A stretch of DNA of 64,000 bases. It comes from Catenuloplanes indicus (GTDB lineage Bacteria; Actinomycetota; Actinomycetes; Mycobacteriales; Micromonosporaceae). The stretch spans positions 2,728,001 through 2,792,000 of the forward strand of contig NZ_JAUSUZ010000001.1 of the NCBI RefSeq assembly GCF_030813715.1. Direction: 5' to 3'. Positions 21,746 through 30,540 of the stretch are shown piece after piece. The notes below the pieces were generated by a model. That model saw only the letters and a list, made by a program, of their open reading frames with translations, was not told the origin of the DNA and ran no database searches. Position 1 is the stretch's first letter. Every line of letters starts with the position of its first letter. A program made the translations under genes and the position numbers.

Positions 21746-22549
21746 TCAGGCGCAAGGGCTGGAGGCGGCGCCGGGGGCGGTGCCGAGGATCAGCGGGTCG
21801 CCGGTCAGCCGGAAGTCGAGACGCCAGTTCGTGCAGGTCTCGCCGGGCCGCTCGGGCGGGCCGAAGCCGGGCGCCTGGCTGCTGGTGAACGACACGGTCG
21901 CCACGTCACCGTCCACGGCCAGCAGCCACACGTCGAAGTCCTGCGTGGTGGCGGTGTCCGCGTTGAACGTCGCGACGTGGCCGGCGTCGCCCGGGTCGAC
22001 CACGCCGCCGGGCGCGAAGACCCGGGTGGCGACCGTCGGGTCGTGCGTGTTGATACCGGTGAAGTACGTGTCGAACAGCGTGGCGATCTCCACCACCCGC
22101 GCGTCGCCGGCGGCCGCGGGCGCGATCGAGACGAGACCGATCCGGCCGGGCGCCGGCTCCGGGAGCCCTTCGTCGAACGGCACCGGCTCCGCCACCGCGG
22201 ACGGCTCCGCCACGGAGAACGACTCCGGCTGATGGGAGATCTCCGGCTCGCCGAAGGGCTCGGTGGAGACGGCCTCCGGCGAACTCGTCGTCCCGGCGGC
22301 GGGCTCCGCGCCGGTGTCCACCAGCAGGTAGCCGGCTCCGAGCAGCCCGGCCAGCACCACCAGCGCGATCGCGGCCACTCGCCACCGCCCGGCCGGTGCC
22401 GCGGCCCGGCGGCGGCGTCCGCCCGGCACGAACGTCAGCACGGCCGGGGCGCTCTCCGCCGTCGCGGGCGCGGCGCCGTCGCAGACCAGGCAGCGCGGCG
22501 CGGACGCGTCATTCGCCGTACCGCATTCGGGGCATTGCCATTCGATCAT
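21746..22549 (-). CDS. Membrane-anchored protein with RanBP2-type zinc finger and extracellular domain
   Basis: 267 residues. The N-terminus (WQCPECGTANDASAPRCLVC) fits W-x-C-x2-C-x3-N-x6-C-x2-C, the RanBP2-type zinc finger signature. Arg-rich sequence and one helix follow (VAAIALVVLAGLLGAGYLLV, about 59-78), then a Ser/Glu/Pro linker. The C-terminal extracytoplasmic domain of about 110 residues (EIATLFDTYFTGINTHDP, then FTSSQAPGFG) is NTF2/SnoaL-like in feel. The start was chosen by GGAGG 8 nt before ATG 22549. It is divergent from the paired-motif cassette. The function is unknown; a zinc-ribbon cytosolic sensor with an outside domain is a guess. Confidence 0.78.
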   Translation of the reverse strand: MIEWQCPECGTANDASAPRCLVCDGAAPATAESAPAVLTFVPGGRRRRAAAPAGRWRVAAIALVVLAGLLGAGYLLVDTGAEPAAGTTSSPEAVSTEPFGEPEISHQPESFSVAEPSAVAEPVPFDEGLPEPAPGRIGLVSIAPAAAGDARVVEIATLFDTYFTGINTHDPTVATRVFAPGGVVDPGDAGHVATFNADTATTQDFDVWLLAVDGDVATVSFTSSQAPGFGPPERPGETCTNWRLDFRLTGDPLILGTAPGAASSPCA

Positions 22550-22808
22550 CAATTGCCTCCGGGGACGCGCACTTTTCCCGACCATTTACCAACGCAGTGA
22601 ATAGCGTGGTGAGGCCGCCGGGCAACGCATTACCCAGCGATTCACCGGACCCGGTACCGAATAGGCCCGGACCGACGGCGACGCGCACCGGTCGCCGCTC
22701 CACCCGGGCCGAAGGAACACCCCGGCAAGACGAAAAGCCCATGCCACACCGGGTGCCGCCGCCGTACCGTCGGGCTCCATAAACCACTGTCGGCACTGGT
22801 GGGAGCGT

Positions 22809-24518
22809 ATGTACGTCGAGGAAGCCAGCACCGTCACGGCCTCGGTCCCGGCCGCGCGGTTCCATCACGGCGAGCCGGGGGCGGCGGCGCACCGGGGCCC
22901 GTTGTCCGCGATCACCCGATGCCTGAGCGGCGCGGTCTATACCGTTCCCGGATTCGCCGACCGGGTGATCACGGAATTGCTCAAGGATCGACATCGCGCT
23001 GTTTCTCCGGCCGTCGACTACGACGTGGAACCGGTGCTGCGGCACGCGTTCCGGGCACGCCGGCTGTGGCTCACCCAGCACGCCGCGGTGTGCGCGGTCC
23101 TGCTGCTCGCGTTCATCATCGCGCCCGGCCCGGTGCTCGGGCTGGTCTGCTTCGGCCTGCTGCTGACCGGTGCCGCGCGGTGGATCGGCGGCAAGCGCCC
23201 GAAGGCCTGGCAGCTGGTGCTGGCCGGCCTGGTCGCGCTGCCGCTGGTCTACGCGGTCATCGGGCCGACGCTCCTCGGCCCGACGGGATACGCGGAGCCG
23301 GAGGACGACGGCTCGCCGTACCTGATGATGCTGTTGACCGGTGGTGCGGTTCTGATCGTCACGGTAGCGGTGCGGCACACGATCCTGCGCGCGCTCACGG
23401 TCGAGCTGAGTCCCGGCCACGCGGACCGGGGCGCGATCGTGCCGAGCCCGCGGGTGGAGGACCGGATCGCGCGGCTGTCACTGGCCCAGCGCGGCAACAT
23501 CCTGCTGCACTCCGGCGACAACCCGTTCCTCGGCGCGGGCGGTGTGCTGCGCGCCTGGTCGATGGCGATGGAGCTGAAGCCGGACGGGGACGGGGACGGG
23601 GACCGGCCGGTCGCGGTGGACCCGGTCGCGCTGAACCGGTACGTCAAGCGGCGGCTGGCCGCGTTGCGCGCCGGTGACCTGCGCGAGGCGGAACGGATGT
23701 CCGGGCTGACGCTGCGCGACCAGATCGTCTCCGCGGGCGTCGGCGGCGAGGGCTGGCCGCTGGTCGACACGGACGCGTTGGTGCCGTACTCGCACGCGAC
23801 ACCGGCCGCGATGGAGTCGGTGATCCGGCATCCGCAGGCCAGCGTGCGGCACTTCCTGCGGGCCACGGTCGGCGCGAACGTGACGCCGGTGCACTCCGCG
23901 GACGGGCGCATGCTGATCCCGGGCGAGCACCACAGCATCGCGGTCTCCACGTTCACGCACATCGCGGTGGAGGGCGGCATGCTCTACGTGGAGACGGTGT
24001 CGACCGTGCTCGGCCCGCTGGGTCACCGCTACCGCCGGATCGACGGCTACCCGGCCGGTGGCGGTGTCGGCGGACGGGCGGCGCTGGAGAGCCTGCGCGA
24101 CTTCGGCGAGAACCTCGCGGTGGCACCGTTGCGGATGGCGGTCACGCTCTACCGGATGGCCGTGCTGGCCCGCGGGATGCGCCGGGCGGAGACCGAGGTG
24201 ACCGAGGAGGAGCTCGGCGATTTCGGCGCGCGGTTCGACCTGCGGCAGGCGACGTCCGCGGCCCACCCGGTCACCTACCTGCAGCGGCTGGACGCGGAGA
24301 AGTACACGAAGCTGATCGAGCGCCGGATCAGCGAGGCGGTGATCGGATATCTGCGCGACGCCGGCATCGACACGTCCGAGTACGAGCGGCGGATGAACGT
24401 CTACAACAACAGCAGCGTCTTCATCAGCGGCGACAACTACGGTGCCGCGGCCGCCGGCGCGGAGGCACAGGCCACGAAGCACGACGGGGACGGGGCGAAG
24501 AAGGGGAAGGACGACTGA
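22809..24518 (+). CDS. Hypothetical multi-pass membrane protein with C-terminal GDNYGAAAAG motif (cassette gene 1)
   Basis: 569 residues, not recognised. After an N-terminal cytosolic stretch (about 1-90) come three or four helices (AAVCAVLLLAFIIAPG; LGLVCFGLLLTGAARWI; WQLVLAGLVALPLVYAVIG; YLMMLLTGGAVLIVTVAV; about 93-190). A soluble region of about 370 residues follows, including YRRIDGYPAGGG and a helical stretch ending RISEAVIGYLRDAGIDTSEY. The tail is VFISGDNYGAAAAG followed by a Lys/Asp-rich end. GGTGGGAG precedes ATG 22809. Its TGA overlaps the next ATG (TGATG). The C-terminal motif nearly repeats at the N-terminus of the next protein, which suggests the two interact. Confidence 0.72.
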   Translation: MYVEEASTVTASVPAARFHHGEPGAAAHRGPLSAITRCLSGAVYTVPGFADRVITELLKDRHRAVSPAVDYDVEPVLRHAFRARRLWLTQHAAVCAVLLLAFIIAPGPVLGLVCFGLLLTGAARWIGGKRPKAWQLVLAGLVALPLVYAVIGPTLLGPTGYAEPEDDGSPYLMMLLTGGAVLIVTVAVRHTILRALTVELSPGHADRGAIVPSPRVEDRIARLSLAQRGNILLHSGDNPFLGAGGVLRAWSMAMELKPDGDGDGDRPVAVDPVALNRYVKRRLAALRAGDLREAERMSGLTLRDQIVSAGVGGEGWPLVDTDALVPYSHATPAAMESVIRHPQASVRHFLRATVGANVTPVHSADGRMLIPGEHHSIAVSTFTHIAVEGGMLYVETVSTVLGPLGHRYRRIDGYPAGGGVGGRAALESLRDFGENLAVAPLRMAVTLYRMAVLARGMRRAETEVTEEELGDFGARFDLRQATSAAHPVTYLQRLDAEKYTKLIERRISEAVIGYLRDAGIDTSEYERRMNVYNNSSVFISGDNYGAAAAGAEAQATKHDGDGAKKGKDD

Positions 24519-24850
24519 TGGGCGGCGTGCACATCCACGGCGACAATCACGGTGCCGCCGCGGCCGGTGATCACGCGCGGGCGATCGTCGGCCGGTACCG
24601 GCCGGACCCGCTCGCGCCGGTGCTGTCCGCGGCCCGCCGGCTGCACGCCGCGATCGACGCGGTCCCGGAGGCGCTGCCCGACCCGGACGCGGCGCTGCGC
24701 GACGTGAACGCGATCGCGGCCGCGACGCAGACCGAGCCACCGGACACCGCGGCCGCGATGGCCGCGGCCCACCGGCTGCTGGACCGGGTCACCGAGGCGG
24801 GCGCGTTCGTCACCGCCACCGAGAAGCTGCGCGCCGCGCTGCGGTCCTGA
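24518..24850 (+). CDS. Small hypothetical protein with N-terminal GDNHGAAAAG motif (cassette gene 2)
   Basis: 110 residues, not recognised. Residues 4-17 (VHIHGDNHGAAAAG) match the C-terminal tail of the upstream membrane protein at 11 of 14 positions. The rest, about 35-110, is predicted alpha-helical and Ala-rich (APVLSAARRLHAAIDAVPEA; AAAMAAAHRLLDRVTEAGAF), like a small helical bundle. It is translationally coupled to gene 1 (TGATG). There is no catalytic motif. It could be an adaptor or effector recruited by motif pairing. Confidence 0.72.
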   Translation: MGGVHIHGDNHGAAAAGDHARAIVGRYRPDPLAPVLSAARRLHAAIDAVPEALPDPDAALRDVNAIAAATQTEPPDTAAAMAAAHRLLDRVTEAGAFVTATEKLRAALRS

Positions 24851-25024: not shown

Positions 25025-25561
25025 TCACTTGAGCCAGGGGGCTTTGCCGACCAGCGGGACCTTGGCCCAGGTGGCGGCCAGGCTGTAGCGGAGGCCGGCG
25101 CCGGTGGCCGCGAGGCCCGCGATGACCAGCGCGTAGATCAGGTGATCGTCGAGGAACGGGTTGGTCGCGATCGGCAGGCTGGCCGCCCACATCAGCACCA
25201 TCATCAGCACACCGGAGACCGCGGCGATCCGCATCCCGATGCCGAGGATCAACGCGACACCGATGCCGGCCAGGCCGGCCATGAACAGCCAGTCGAGCAG
25301 CACGTTCCCGGACATCGCGTTGAAGACACCGGCGAACGGCCCCTCGACACCGGCCAGGAAGCCCTTGGTCGGCTGACCACCGTTCAGCCACGCCTTCTCG
25401 GCCGGCGTCGACTTGCCGAGGCCGAACAGCTTGTCCAGGAACGCCCACAGGAAGACGAAACCCAGCCCGACGCGGGTGACGGCCCAGGTGACCTCGCCGA
25501 ACGCGTGGTCGGTGACGGTCTTCGAAGCAACGGCGGTCCTGGTGTGCGCAACGGTCACCAC
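25025..25561 (-). CDS. DoxX-family membrane protein
   Basis: 178 residues with four helices (VTRVGLGFVFLWAFLDKLFG; WLFMAGLAGIGVALILGIGM; AVSGVLMMVLMWAASLP; HLIYALVIAGLAATGAGL) and the early Arg/Asp pattern of DoxX/DoxD proteins, which sit in the membrane and act in thiol or quinone redox steps. The start is GTG 25561, with GGGAGGGG 6 nt upstream. It lies downstream of priA with a 135-bp gap and probably has its own promoter. The exact redox partner is unknown. Confidence 0.82.
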   Translation of the reverse strand: MVTVAHTRTAVASKTVTDHAFGEVTWAVTRVGLGFVFLWAFLDKLFGLGKSTPAEKAWLNGGQPTKGFLAGVEGPFAGVFNAMSGNVLLDWLFMAGLAGIGVALILGIGMRIAAVSGVLMMVLMWAASLPIATNPFLDDHLIYALVIAGLAATGAGLRYSLAATWAKVPLVGKAPWLK

Positions 25562-25696
25562 GGTGATCCCCTCCCGGATCAGCTGACGACCGGCGGAACT
25601 CCCTCGGCGTTCCCATCCCCTGTCGTCACATTCATGCTCGCCGCCGGGAGGGGGTGCGCAGCAGGGCCGATGGTCCCAAGACCATCGGGTCCCCGG

Positions 25697-26422
25697 TCAG
25701 CTCTCGAACAGGACCCGCAGTGCCTCGGACACCGTGAACGCACCCGCGTAGAGCGCCTTACCGGCGATGACGCCCTCGACGCCGACCGACTCCAGCGTGG
25801 CCAGCGCGCGCAGGTCGTCCAGCGTGGACACGCCACCGCTGGCGATCACCGGCGCGGACGTGGCGGCGCAGACCTCGCGGAGCAGGTCCAGGTTCGGCCC
25901 GCGCATGGTGCCGTCCTTGGTGATGTCCGTGACGACGTAGCGCGCCGCACCGGCCTTGTCCAGACGGGCCAGCACCTCGTAGAGGTCGCCGCCGTTCCGG
26001 GTCCAGCCGCGCGCGGACAGCGTGCGGCCGCGCACGTCCAGACCGATCGCGACGCGGTCGCCGTACTCCGCGGCGACCCGGTCGCACCACTCCGGGTTCT
26101 CCAGCGCGGCCGTGCCGATGTTGACCCGGGTGGCGCCGGTGGCCAGCGCGCGCTCCAGCGACTCGTCGTCCCGGATGCCGCCGGACAGCTCCACGTTGAC
26201 GTCGAGCCGGCCGACCACCTCGGCGAGCAGCTCCGCGTTCGAGCCACGGCCGAACGCGGCGTCCAGATCGACCAGGTGAATCCAGGTGGCGCCGTCGGTC
26301 TGCCAGGCCAGCGCGGCCTCGAGCGGGTCGCCGTACGCGGTCTCGCTGCCGGCCGCGCCCTGCACCAGGCGGACGGCCTGACCGTCGGCGACGTCGACGG
26401 CGGGAAGCAGTTCGAGGGTCAC
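25697..26422 (-). CDS. priA: Bifunctional phosphoribosyl isomerase A (HisA/TrpF)
   Basis: A 241-residue (beta/alpha)8 barrel that isomerises ProFAR to PRFAR (histidine) and, in actinobacteria, phosphoribosyl anthranilate (tryptophan). The catalytic Asp is in [17 protein letters not shown] and the second in [13 protein letters not shown]. Phosphate loops are SGGIRDD and ASGGVST. The PriA-type loop ([18 protein letters not shown]) supports dual function. AAGGAG precedes GTG 26422. It is the last recognised gene of the hisDCB-H run; hisF, normally next, is missing here. Confidence 0.95.
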
Positions 26423-26435
26423 GGATTCTCCTTGA

Positions 26436-26765
26436 TCATGAGTTTCTTCGGCCCAGCGCGATCACGATCAGCGCTGGTAGGGCGAGGATCAGCACCAGAA
26501 CGATGATCAGGCGCATCACCAGGTCGTCCACCAGGTACCAGGTCACCATCACGGCGAGCAAGCTGAGCATCACGATCGCGGCACGCTGGGTCGCGGTGCG
26601 CCGCGGCTGGAGCCGGCCGGTGCGCCGGTCCGGCAGCTTCGGCACGATCCTGTCCGTGATGTCCTTGCGCCGCTGGCGGCGGGACGCCACGGCCGCGCGG
26701 GCGGCGCGTTTCTGCTCCGCCTCCAGCAGCCGGGCGGCCCGCCGGATGGCCCGGTCCTTGCTCAC
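26436..26765 (-). CDS. Small Arg-rich membrane protein between hisH and priA
   Basis: 109 residues from GTG 26765, overlapping the hisH stop by GTGA, so it is part of the histidine operon. The first 65 residues are very basic ([22 protein letters not shown]). Two adjacent helices follow ([38 protein letters not shown]), ending GRRNS. Similar small proteins are found in actinobacterial his operons, but the function is unknown. Confidence 0.78.
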
Positions 26766-27379
26766 AGCCCGTCGATCCAGTTCCGGAGCAGGCGCGCGCC
26801 GGTGTCGCCGGACTTCTCCGGGTGGAACTGCGCGACGGACAACGGGCCGTGCTCGACCACGGCCGCGAACGGCTCGTCGTGCGCGGCCGTGGTCACCACC
26901 GCGTCCCGCAGCGCGTCCAGGCCGCTGGCACCGTAGGAGTGCACGAAGTAGAACCGGGCGTCGTCCGGCATGCCGTCCATCAGGCGGCTCTCCGGCGGCG
27001 CGGTCACCGTGTTCCACCCCATGTGCGGGATGCGCTCGGCCGTGAGCCGGGTCACGCCGCCGGGCAGCAGGCCGAGGCCCTTGGTGACGGTGCCGTGCTC
27101 GTCACCGTACTCGAAGAAGATCTGCATGCCGACGCAGATGCCGAGCACCGGCCGGCCGGCCGCAACCCGCTCCGCGATCATCGGGCCGGCGTCGATCGCC
27201 TCCACCCCGGCCATGCACGCGGCGAACGCGCCGACGCCCGGCACCACCAGGCCGTCCGCGTCCGCGGCCGCGGTCAGGTCCGGCGTGACGGTCACGTCCG
27301 CACCGGCCCGCTCCAGCGCGCGCTCGGCGGAGCGCAGGTTGCCGGAGCCGTAGTCCAGGATCACCACACGCTTTGTCAT
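26762..27379 (-). CDS. hisH: Imidazole glycerol phosphate synthase glutaminase subunit
   Basis: A 205-residue class I glutamine amidotransferase that supplies ammonia to HisF. The nucleophile Cys is in LGICVGMQ (about residue 82), with the His/Glu pair in AQFHPEKSG (about 186-188). The oxyanion strand is PGVGAF and the N-terminus is VVILDYGSGN. It lies 11 bp after the 51-residue ORF and overlaps the next ORF by GTGA. Its partner hisF lies about 7 kb further downstream on the same strand. Confidence 0.96.
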   Translation of the reverse strand: MTKRVVILDYGSGNLRSAERALERAGADVTVTPDLTAAADADGLVVPGVGAFAACMAGVEAIDAGPMIAERVAAGRPVLGICVGMQIFFEYGDEHGTVTKGLGLLPGGVTRLTAERIPHMGWNTVTAPPESRLMDGMPDDARFYFVHSYGASGLDALRDAVVTTAAHDEPFAAVVEHGPLSVAQFHPEKSGDTGARLLRNWIDGL

Positions 27380-27390
27380 TGATCGCTCCC

Positions 27391-27546
27391 CTATTCCGGG
27401 ATGAGCCAGAGGATGCCGCCCGCCGCGGCCAGCGCGGCGAGGAGCCCGGTGACGGCTATCGAGAACGTGCTCGCCTCCTGCCGGTGGAGCGAGAACGCCC
27501 CACCGGCCAGCACGCCCGCGAGAGCCAGCAGCAGGATCGAAATCAC
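27391..27546 (-). CDS. 51-residue membrane protein in the his operon
   Basis: Starts at GTG 27546, overlapping the hisB stop by GTGA, and ends 11 bp before hisH. Two helices ([41 protein letters not shown]) are linked by a short polar loop HRQEAST. The position and tight overlap on both sides argue for a real gene. The function is unknown. Confidence 0.72.
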   Translation of the reverse strand: MISILLLALAGVLAGGAFSLHRQEASTFSIAVTGLLAALAAAGGILWLIPE

Positions 27547-28154
27547 AGGGTGCCCTTGGTGGACGGGATCGCGCCCGCGTTCCGCGGGTCGATCTCCACC
27601 GCCTCGCGCAGCGCCCGGGACACGGCCTTGAACTGCGCCTCCACCACGTGGTGCGCGTCCGGGTGGCCGCCCTCGCGCGCGCCGCGCAGCACCGAGACGT
27701 GCAGCGTCATCTTCGCGGTCTGCGCGAACGACTCCCAGATGTGCCGGGTCATGCTGGTCGGGTAGACCGGCCCGATGTACGGCGTGAGCAGTGGCTCGTC
27801 GTGCACCATGTACGGCCGGCCGGACAGGTCGAGCGCGGCCCGGACCAGCACCTCGTCCATCGGGATGGTGGCCGAACCGTACCGCCGGATGCCCGCCTTG
27901 TCGCCGAGCGCCTCCGCGAACGCGGTGCCCAGCGCGAGCGCGGTGTCCTCCATCGTGTGGTGCGCGTCGATCTCCAGGTCGCCCTCGGTGTGCACGGTCA
28001 GGTCGAAGCCGCCGTGCTTGGCGATCTGGTTGAGCATGTGGTCGAAGAAGCCCACGCCGGTGTTGATGTCGCCCTTGCCGGTCCCGTCCAGGTCCAGCTC
28101 GATGCGCACCTTGGTCTCGTTCGTGGTGCGGTCGATCCGCGCCCGTCGGCTCAT
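27543..28154 (-). CDS. hisB: Imidazoleglycerol-phosphate dehydratase
   Basis: A 203-residue monofunctional enzyme (no phosphatase domain) removing water from IGP to give imidazole acetol phosphate. The manganese-binding His/Glu motifs are [12 protein letters not shown] (about residue 66) and [12 protein letters not shown] (about 166), with [17 protein letters not shown] near the start. It overlaps hisC (ATGA) and the small membrane ORF (GTGA). Confidence 0.96.
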
Positions 28155-29218
28155 CGGTCAAGCTCCTTCATCGCGTTCAGGAAAGCGTCGGTCTCGTCGG
28201 GGGTGCCGGCCGTCACGCGCAGCCAGCCGGGCAGTCCGACGTCCCGGACGAGGACACCACGGTCGAGCAGCGCGCGCCAGGCGGTCTTCTGGTCGCCGCC
28301 CACCTCGAAGAGCACGAAGTTGGCGTCGCTGTCGGCGACCGTGAGACCGGCGCCGCGCAGCGTCGACACGATCCGGTCCCGCTCGGTCTTGATCGCCTCG
28401 ACCGTGCTCAGCAGCGCGGCCCGGTGCGACAGCGCGGCCCGCGCCGCGGCCTGGGTGAGCGCGGACAGGTGGTACGGCAACCGGACCAGCTGCACCGCGT
28501 CCACCACGGCCGGGTGCGCGGCCAGGTAGCCCAGGCGGCCACCGGCGAACCCGAACGCCTTGCTCATCGTGCGCGTCACCACCAGCCGCGGGTGGCCGGG
28601 CAGCACCTCCAGCGCGCTCGGCGTGCCGGGCCGGGCGAACTCCGCGTACGCCTCGTCCACGATCACCATGCCGGGCGCGGCGTCCAGCACGGCCGCGATC
28701 ACGGCCGGGTCCAGCGCGGTGCCGGTCGGGTTGTTCGGCGAGCAGAGGAAGACCAGGTCCGGCTGATGCTCCCGGACCTGCGCGACCGCGTGCTCCGCGT
28801 CGAGCCCGAAGTCCTCGCCGCGCCGGCCGTCCACCCAGCGGGTGCCGGTACCGACCGCGAGCAGCGGGTGCATCGAGTAGGCCGGGGTGAAGCCGAGCGC
28901 GGTCCGCCCCGGGCCCGCGAACACCTGGAGCAACTGCTGCTGGACCTCGTTCGACCCGTTCGCCGCCCAGACGTGCGCGACGGTCAGGCCGTGCCCGAGG
29001 TAGTCGGCGAGCGCGGAGCGCAGCGCCACCGCGTCCCGGTCCGGGTACCGGTTGAGGTCGCGCAGCTCGGCCTGGAGCGCCTTGCCGATCGCCTCGACGA
29101 CCTCGTCCGGCACCGGGTACGAGTTCTCGTTCGTGTTCAGCCGGACCGGCACGTCCAGCTGGGGTGCGCCGTACGGGCTCAGGCCGCGCAGGTCGTCCCG
29201 GATCGGAAGGTCGATCAC
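28151..29218 (-). CDS. hisC: Histidinol-phosphate aminotransferase
   Basis: A 355-residue PLP enzyme transferring the amino group to imidazole acetol phosphate. It shows [11 protein letters not shown] at the N-terminus, [19 protein letters not shown] and the Schiff-base Lys in [17 protein letters not shown], with the phosphate-binding Arg near the C-terminus ([11 protein letters not shown]). It overlaps hisD by 4 bp and hisB by 4 bp. Confidence 0.96.
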
Positions 29219-30540
29219 GCCAGGCCCCCCGGGAAACGCGCGGACACGGCCTCGCCGTGCGCGGGCAGGTCCTCCGCCGTGGCGAGCGCGACCACGTGCG
29301 CCGCGACCTCGCGCAGCGCGGGCTCGTCGTACTCCACGATGTGCACGTTCTTCAGGAACGACTGCACGGACAGGCCGGACTGGTGCCGGGCGCAGCCGCC
29401 GGTCGGCAGCACGTGGTTGGAACCGGCGCAGTAGTCGCCCAGCGACACCGGCGCGAACGCGCCCACGAAGATCGCACCGGCGTTGCGCACCCGCATCGCC
29501 CAGCTCCGCGCATCCCGCGTCTGGATCTCCAAGTGCTCGGCCGCGTACGCGTCGACCACGCGCAGGCCCTGCTCCAGGTCCTTGACCAGCACGATGCCGG
29601 ACTGCTCACCGGTCAGCGACGTGCTGACCCGCTCGGAGTGCTTGGTGGCCGTCACCATCCGGGCCAGCGCGTCCTCGACCGCGTCCGCCAGCTTCTCGGA
29701 GGGCGTGACCAGCACGCTCGCGGCCAGCGGGTCGTGCTCGGCCTGGCTGATCAGGTCGGCCGCGACGTGCACCGGGTCGGCGGTGTCATCGGCCAGGATC
29801 GCAATCTCGGTCGGCCCGGCCTCCGCGTCGATGCCGACCACGCCGCGCAGCAGCCGCTTCGCCGCGGTCACCCAGATGTTGCCCGGGCCGGTGATCACGT
29901 CGACCGGCGCGCAGCCGTCGCCGTCGACCGCGCCGGTCGATCCGTAGCCCAGCATCGCGATCGCCTGTGCCCCGCCTGCGGCGTAGACCTCGTCCACCCC
30001 GAGCAGCGCGCACGCGGCGAGAACCCGCGCGTCCGGCAGGCCGCCGTTCTCCTTCTGCGGCGGGCTGGCCACGACCAGCGCGTCCACGCCGGCGATCTGC
30101 GCGGGCACCACATTCATCACCACGGTCGACGGGTACACCGCCAGGCCGCCGGGCACGTAGAGACCCACCCGGGACACCGGCAGCCAGCGCTCGGTGACCG
30201 TGCCGCCGGCCGTGACCTGCGTGGTCACGTCCCGCCGGCGCTGGTCGGCGTGCACCTTGCGGGTGCGGGCGATCGCCTCCTCCAGCGCGGCACGCACCTC
30301 CGGCTCCAGCGCGGACAGCGACGCCGCGATCGCCTCGGCCGGCACCCGCAGCCGCTCCAGACGCACGCCGTCGAACCGCTCGGTCGCCTCGCGGATGGCC
30401 GGGAACCCATGCTCCCGGACCGCCTCCACGAGCGGGCGGATGGTCTCGGTCGCGACCGAGACGTCGAGCTGGGCACGGGGCAGCAGGCCACGCGGCACCG
30501 CGGCGTCCGCCGCGCTCCGCAGGTCGATCCGGTTCAACAC
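29215..30540 (-). CDS. hisD: Histidinol dehydrogenase
   Basis: A 441-residue zinc enzyme that makes two NAD-dependent oxidations of histidinol to histidine. Signature regions are [38 protein letters not shown], the catalytic Glu/His segment [11 protein letters not shown] and [10 protein letters not shown]. The start is GTG 30540. TAGACT (30548-30553) lies 7 nt upstream and there is no ribosome site, so this first gene of the operon is probably read from a leaderless mRNA. Confidence 0.95.

Follow-up and report, generated by a model that had tools for sequence, protein, structure and literature searches.

A two-gene membrane-hub cassette with co-varying facing motifs: a candidate for NLR-independent amyloid-type signaling in actinobacteria

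The closest described counterparts of the system reported here are bacterial pairs associated with NOD-like receptors (NLRs) and known as BASS1-10, in which, according to the accounts cited, a Bell-domain protein carries a C-terminal motif and an NLR carries an N-terminal one (PMC7889193, PMC8086366). As those accounts describe them, the paired genes are adjacent or overlapping and occur in filamentous bacteria, the C-terminal motif of one product matches the N-terminal motif of the other, many motif versions exist, and CHAT domains are sometimes involved (PMC7889193, PMC8086366); in each of these respects our cassette is similar. In fungi, pairs of an NLR and a PNP_UDP protein (PUASM) are described in which a short, Gly-rich amyloid motif is attached to a phosphorylase-superfamily effector (PMC9815663), a combination that also recurs here. 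Here we describe a two-gene cassette in a 64,000-nucleotide stretch of the Catenuloplanes indicus genome (contig NZ_JAUSUZ010000001.1, positions 2,728,001 to 2,792,000; the window), which an original prediction had singled out as a candidate amyloid-type signaling pair lacking an NLR. Across its homologs, motifs at the facing ends of the two proteins are paired and co-vary, the partner is exchanged, and the membrane protein's tail and the partner are absent together; in the window's genome, no NB-ARC protein was found near the cassette. With a probability of roughly 0.7, we interpret the locus as an NLR-independent amyloid-type signaling cassette of two genes (three in one clade), built on a membrane hub.

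The cassette comprises gene 1, a constant membrane protein or hub of 569 residues (22809-24518, forward strand), and gene 2, its partner of 110 residues (24518-24850, forward strand), which is an open reading frame (ORF), like gene 1, and was aligned with 82 short partners. The genes overlap as TGATG, the stop codon of gene 1 (24516-24518) and the start codon of gene 2 (24518-24520) having one base in common. The C-terminal region of gene 1 bears the tail motif VFISGDNYGAAAAG (24417-24458, forward strand), followed by a charged tail, and gene 2 opens with the head motif VHIHGDNHGAAAAG (24527-24568, forward strand), about 110 bases away. The two motifs, assigned by position, are identical at 11 of 14 residues and at 32 of 42 bases; different codons are used at 5 of the 11 common residues, so the matching ends, the overlap and the synonymous differences are all as originally predicted. 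AlphaFold2 (AF2) models predict that both motif-bearing ends are disordered and the bodies of both proteins folded: gene 1 is disordered after approximately residue 538, with a mean predicted local distance difference test score (pLDDT) of 41-45 per block over residues 541-569, and residues 1-28 of gene 2, the head, fall below pLDDT 50. A candidate third copy inside gene 1, HSGDNPFLGAGG, was rejected, being the conserved body motif GNVVxYxGxxPFxGxG of the gene 1 family.

Homologs of gene 1 were found in 70 of 200 genomes of the window's family (Micromonosporaceae) and 50 of 296 genomes of its class, the window's own genome being included in both counts. From 140 fetched regions (80 from the family search, with a few weak or fragmentary places omitted, and 60 from the class search, both sets being samples rather than exhaustive collections) and the window's own locus, we collected 142 homologs in 105 genomes; in the set made non-redundant at 85%, the window's locus (L003) is represented by L059. 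The body of gene 1 is conserved as far as DFLxxxGVDTxEF, and beyond this point the sequence is variable: 128 of the 142 homologs have a tail of at least 30 residues, Gly/Asn-rich and highly diverse, with examples such as GDNYGAAAAG, TFHGGQQNFG, GGTFNGPVAAG and NAGAIHTGTGNITIDGPGVGNQ. Loci whose tail falls short of 30 residues (14 of 142; 13 of 135 in the non-redundant set) are called tail-less here and did not enter the pair counts.

The tail of each homolog was aligned to the start of its downstream gene in the best-fitting reading frame, and non-cognate tails were allowed an equal choice of frame. Over 122 non-redundant loci, the mean cognate score was 71.7, against 29.5 for non-cognate combinations; permuted pairings averaged 29.9 (SD, standard deviation, 0.9), with 34.5 the highest of 20,000, which places the cognate mean 46 SD above. 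A tail scored higher on its own head than on 99% of heads from loci with less than 40% body identity in 94 of the 122 cases, and higher than on 95% of them in 105. Kinship does not account for the match, since the score of a tail on a relative's head, which is 39.3 at 40-50% body identity, 48.9 at 50-60% and 64.6 at 60-70%, reaches the level of cognate pairs only at 70-85% (73.6). The gap between the cognate mean and the value at 40-50% body identity suggests that tail and head changed together, and the independent drift that was named as evidence against pairing is not borne out. Consistent with this, tail and head similarity remained correlated once body identity was removed (partial Mantel r 0.47, with none of 999 permutations as high; 107 of the 122 loci, those with an own score of at least 40). 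Within single genomes, 24 of which have two or more tail-bearing homologs, the own head won 67 of 68 ordered comparisons, the single failure being a tandem duplicate without a downstream partner (L095); where pairs scored at least 40, the own partner won 54 of 54. The expected paired co-variation is thus found.

The motif also appears to be specific to the cassette. Thirteen of the tails and heads described here served to build a 20-residue model, which they therefore match by construction. Among the 200 family genomes, with at most 45 first-look candidates scored in each, at least 17 matches spanned the full model with E below 1e-8; they came from 9 genomes, and each was a cassette tail or head. 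The next match among the candidates scored had E 0.0015 and covered half of the motif. Among the candidates scored in five genomes of the genus, only ten tails and heads rose above chance, and in the window's genome, where 150 of 253 candidates were scored, no match other than the tail and the head did so. On the candidates scored, we rejected chance or a common linker of unrelated proteins, the other concern raised at the outset, as the source of the match. A division of the motifs into discrete classes was dropped: under single linkage, applied to scores without equal frame choice for non-cognate tails, the number of groups ranged from 4 to 29 with the threshold chosen, which suggests that the motifs form a continuum.

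Tail and partner are also absent together. Nine of the 14 tail-less homologs belong to a single clade and share a conserved VQDxxPxKADxYDA-type end, and the other five are truncated; no ORF matching the helical or phosphorylase partner profile was found in the fetched DNA of the 14 loci. On a quickly built gene 1 tree, the truncated homologs lie inside phosphorylase clades (L129, L133, L134) or helical clades (L091, L094), and because they are nested among partner-bearing relatives, tail and partner were probably lost jointly. A tail-less paralog (L213, L214, L221-L227), with a conserved end of this VQDxxPxKADxYDA type and no partner, has conserved neighbors, one of them a LepA-type elongation factor by eye, and may show an ancestral or housekeeping role of the gene 1 body.

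Beside the constant gene 1, the partner is exchanged. All 31 aligned long partners match PNP_UDP_1, the nucleoside-phosphorylase family, and in all 31 three positions are occupied by Glu, Glu and Asp, which we take to be candidate catalytic residues from their roles in the 5'-methylthioadenosine/S-adenosylhomocysteine nucleosidase family. One of the 31 also has a bDLD3 Death-like domain (L111). Elsewhere the partner is a CHAT protein (L074), 3 of the 82 short partners match EAD1 in Pfam, and in L128 a phosphorylase, the motif and a DUF5955-like helical domain are fused in one protein. In 13 loci of one clade, a phosphorylase gene lies upstream of gene 1 on the same strand and has, in 13 of 13, a motif-like stretch behind the enzyme domain. 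This stretch scores at least 44 on the gene 1 tail in 11 of the 13, where the enzyme domain itself scores 22-32; the exceptions are L115 (38 on the tail, 60 on the head) and L125 (23 and 37). Three proteins of one locus therefore bear the motif. The upstream protein of L072 has no Pfam match, resembles a nucleotidyl cyclase by eye, and also ends in the cassette motif. With partners labeled as helical, phosphorylase, CHAT, EAD1, upstream phosphorylase, upstream cyclase-like or none, at least 15 label changes are needed on the gene 1 tree, which comes from a quick search and has long branches and indicative support; L077, L199 and L209 are labeled helical by default, with no helical profile match in those loci, and L075 is typed as CHAT because it is nearly identical to L074. 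The exchanged domains are parts known from bacterial conflict systems. Exchange beside a constant gene 1 argues for gene 1 as the sensor or hub and gene 2 as the partner, close to the earlier proposal of a membrane sensor or effector with a helical partner; the amyloid templating that was proposed to link them is a matter of inference.

The partner in the window is a small helical protein. Its predicted four-helix domain (residues 33-109; 24614-24844, forward strand) is a distant relative, rather than a member, of Pfam DUF5955 (16.4 bits, below the curated cut-off of 27.1), a family matched by 29 of the 82 short partners at E 0.01 or better. The original statement that gene 2 belongs to no recognizable family therefore has to be amended. 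Pfam gave no EAD1 match for the window's gene 2, and a specific fold was rejected, generic helical bundles being the only structure matches (best Z 8.6). Its helices have a modest hydropathy of 0.59, a value that exceeds 1.6 in 25 of 83 relatives; pore formation is thus not favored for the window's gene 2 on these hydropathy values, and its relatives may differ. By analogy with EAD1, which occupies the same place elsewhere, gene 2 may be an adaptor.

Gene 1 was described as a three- or four-helix membrane protein of no recognized family, and both statements hold. The AF2 model (mean pLDDT 87.7) has four long helices within residues 73-199, taken as four predicted transmembrane helices (TM1-TM4; 23025-23405, forward strand), and a hydropathy scan gives three peaks. 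In 76 homologs, the TM2-TM3 loop averages 3.9 Lys/Arg against 1.2 Asp/Glu and the TM3-TM4 loop 0.7 against 3.3, a distribution of charge that predicts both termini in the cytosol. A soluble alpha/beta domain follows (residues 231-521; 23499-24371, forward strand), modeled mostly above pLDDT 90. Its fold matches are weak (two KA1-type chains at Z 7.8-8.2, the VIA-align best being 8.2, and many START/Bet v 1-like helix-grip chains at Z up to 7.3), Foldseek returned no match at E 0.001 or better, and these modeled resemblances do not point to a function. The window's gene 1 has no significant match in Pfam, NCBIfam or PADLOC; among the 76 homologs scanned, three Pfam membrane-protein models each gave one weak match and PADLOC none. 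Assignment to a known family was rejected, the sequence matches in the PDB being receptors, designed proteins and other chains, mostly through the membrane part.

The absence of an NLR, also part of the original prediction, is upheld within the range of the search. We found at least 27 NB-ARC matches in the window's genome, the nearest about 112 kb from the cassette, and none in the window (150 of 219 genome candidates scored; NACHT was not searched genome-wide). Among the candidates scored in the window's genome, no NB-ARC protein with the cassette motif was found, and a Pfam scan of gene 2 gave neither an NB-ARC nor a NACHT match. Over 127 loci, a Walker A motif occurs in 14 ORFs of at least 250 residues, mostly transporter-, helicase- or other ATPase-like; those in L108 and L205 look NB-ARC-like by eye. 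We recognized no description of such NLR-free bacterial pairs in the open-access papers searched, a set without preprints.

How might such a cassette work? In the mechanism that we propose, gene 1 would serve as the constant hub, set in the membrane by four helices, with its soluble domain in the cytosol and its C-terminal motif on a flexible end. Once triggered, hubs would cluster, and their tail motifs would stack into a small cross-beta seed onto which the N-terminal motif of the partner is recruited; this would gather the partner domain at the membrane and activate it there. The partner could be an effector (an enzyme of the phosphorylase/nucleosidase family or a CHAT protease) or a small helical or EAD1 adaptor that relays the signal, and different motif versions would act as separate signaling channels. 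Homotypic cross-beta stacking is the likeliest form of tail-head contact because the motifs are alike rather than complementary, short, predicted to be disordered, Gly/Asn-rich and charge-poor; relative to gene 1 bodies, Asn is raised 6.8-fold and Gly 2.5-fold, and Arg, Leu, Trp and Cys are depleted. Alternatively, tail and head could dock without forming amyloid, two short strands pairing once by beta-augmentation to give a stable complex of gene 1 and gene 2 with no templating. Every co-variation result is compatible with this, as with any specific tail-head contact, and the translational coupling of the genes (a gap of -4 or -1 in 57 of 112 pairs) suits a stoichiometric complex. However, such docking calls for complementary surfaces rather than near-identical ones, and both the third motif-like copy on the upstream phosphorylases and a composition rich in Gly and Asn but poor in charge are easier to explain if many copies stack. 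We therefore regard simple docking as unlikely, although it is the most serious of the alternatives considered here.

The signal probably runs from hub to partner, since the enzymes sit on the partner side. The reverse arrangement, in which gene 2 is an inhibitor or antitoxin-like cap whose head occupies the tail and holds a membrane-active executor, gene 1, in check, draws on the overlap of the genes and on the C-terminal position of the motif on a membrane protein, as on the executors of known NLR pairs as described in PMC7889193. Yet many partners are enzymes that conserve candidate catalytic residues, or carry known effector or adaptor domains, as expected of an activated arm; we consider a cap improbable, somewhat more so than docking. 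The cassette may serve in defense or regulated cell death.

Several observations weigh against the amyloid-type interpretation. Amyloid formation and templating by the motifs are read from sequence: the logic of a matched, co-varying pair without an NLR, as originally proposed, is supported by the data, and the step from pair to amyloid is one that we infer. The downstream start scores at least 40 in 112 of the 128 tail-bearing loci and below 40 in the other 16. Six of these low scorers have their match in an upstream gene (L072, L095 twice, L100, L104 and L128), in two (L131 and L172) a helical partner is present whose head matches weakly, and L074, L075, L077, L132 and L199 match weakly, although an upstream ORF of L077 has a motif-like C-terminal stretch with a score of 40. 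L124, L193 and L209 bear a tail and have no matching partner in the fetched DNA. These three are the loci that conform to another sign named as evidence against pairing, a motif on only one of the two genes; the 13 tail-less homologs of the 135 do not, as no helical or phosphorylase ORF was found in the fetched DNA of the tail-less loci. In the window itself, gene 2 has no recognized effector domain and no effector gene was seen beside the cassette. Finally, the relatives of gene 2 match PADLOC PDC-M14B models weakly (one model in 14 of 82, best 1.1e-4, and another in 11 of 82, best 2.6e-7), which leaves the defense role conjectural.

The same codon is used at 62.2% of common tail-head residues, against 54.4% expected (about 7 SD), an excess that also speaks against our interpretation and that could reflect some DNA-level copying or recent common descent. 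In its strongest form, this explanation would attribute the likeness of the motifs to duplication or gene conversion with no shared function, and the closeness of the two copies in the window would favor it. However, codons differ at 38% of the 1717 common residues of 111 pairs, as they do at 5 of 11 in the window, which points to selection on the protein rather than freshly copied DNA. Motif-like stretches on upstream genes of other families, approximately 1.7-2.1 kb away from where gene 1 ends, and the joint absence of tail and partner are likewise hard to reconcile with it. Recent duplication as the sole cause was rejected on the codon divergence, and copying without shared function is largely refuted and very improbable.

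An amyloid-type cassette of this kind would differ from the described systems in defined ways. The feature that characterizes BASS pairs, a C-terminal motif of one protein that matches the N-terminal motif of its neighbor, is present here, but in place of an NLR, a short helical protein, a phosphorylase-family enzyme, or a CHAT or EAD1 protein bears the N-terminal motif, and the constant partner is a four-helix membrane protein, mostly of 550-600 residues, with no Pfam family. Compared with the Bell domain, as it is described in PMC7889193, gene 1 is far larger, and it has no significant Pfam match. We do not file the cassette as a BASS signalosome because the NLR, a defining feature, was looked for and not found; by analogy, it appears to be a variant of amyloid-type pair signaling that this absence sets apart. 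In the fungal PUASM pairs, as that account presents them, the receptor side is an NLR (PMC9815663), whereas here it is a membrane protein; the fungal motif is C-terminal on the phosphorylase, and here it is N-terminal on the 31 downstream enzymes and C-terminal on the upstream ones of one clade. Conflict systems built on effector-associated (EAD) and Death-like domains, as far as the cited accounts describe them, share EAD1, bDLD3, phosphorylase and caspase-like parts with our loci and occur in multicellular bacteria including actinobacteria; in those systems, the parts are linked through folded adaptor domains, with NTPases as the proposed drivers of assembly (PMC8195603, PMC7159879). Here, by contrast, a short motif predicted to be disordered joins them, and the two cassette genes have no recognized NTPase.

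On balance, we lean slightly toward a broader view, in which these loci represent a widespread NLR-free branch of amyloid signaling: a family of membrane receptors or hubs with hypervariable prion-type C-terminal motifs, exchangeable effectors (nucleotide-degrading phosphorylases, CHAT proteases and EAD or helical adaptors), several mutually insulated motif channels in one cytoplasm, and, in several clades, a single-pass zinc-ribbon protein through which an outside signal enters. The family is a genome-level candidate for answering "yes" to a question that a 2021 review listed as open, and its more than 100 natural pairs, natural losses and multi-cassette genomes make that question directly testable. 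If this view is correct, the family would offer a large natural collection of self-assembling tags that are orthogonal to one another, and a membrane hub, instead of an NLR, would stand above phosphorylase-family enzymes and Death-like or EAD parts.

A gene divergent from the cassette (21746-22585, reverse strand) encodes an N-terminal zinc ribbon (Zn_ribbon_RanBP, 7.2e-7), a low-complexity linker, one hydrophobic segment and a C-terminal domain. Related genes occur in 10 loci of the window's clade, five of them near-identical Catenuloplanes loci. In two other clades, neighbors of similar layout make up clusters of 14 and 13 loci and, judged on three members of each cluster, have unrelated C-terminal domains. 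More generally, recurrent neighbors of helical-partner cassettes have an N-terminal zinc ribbon or a short W-containing motif and clade-specific C-terminal domains. From this association, the single-pass zinc-ribbon protein is a possible third component, perhaps the receptor through which an outside signal reaches the hub.

On the other side of the cassette, a DoxX-like gene and a histidine biosynthesis cluster (25025-30540, reverse strand; by eye) indicate ordinary chromosomal surroundings with no evident mobile island. Other neighbors were likewise noted by eye. Genes resembling macro-domain (ADP-ribose-binding) proteins lie near the phosphorylase cassettes of L116, L130, L132 and L135, a hint of NAD or nucleotide metabolism. 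Nucleotidyl cyclase-like genes lie upstream in L072, L122, L137 and L210, and that of L122 ends in a motif-like sequence with a score of 30. NUDIX hydrolase-like genes lie near the cassettes of 27 loci (for example, L069, L093 and L095), 13 of which are phosphorylase cassettes.

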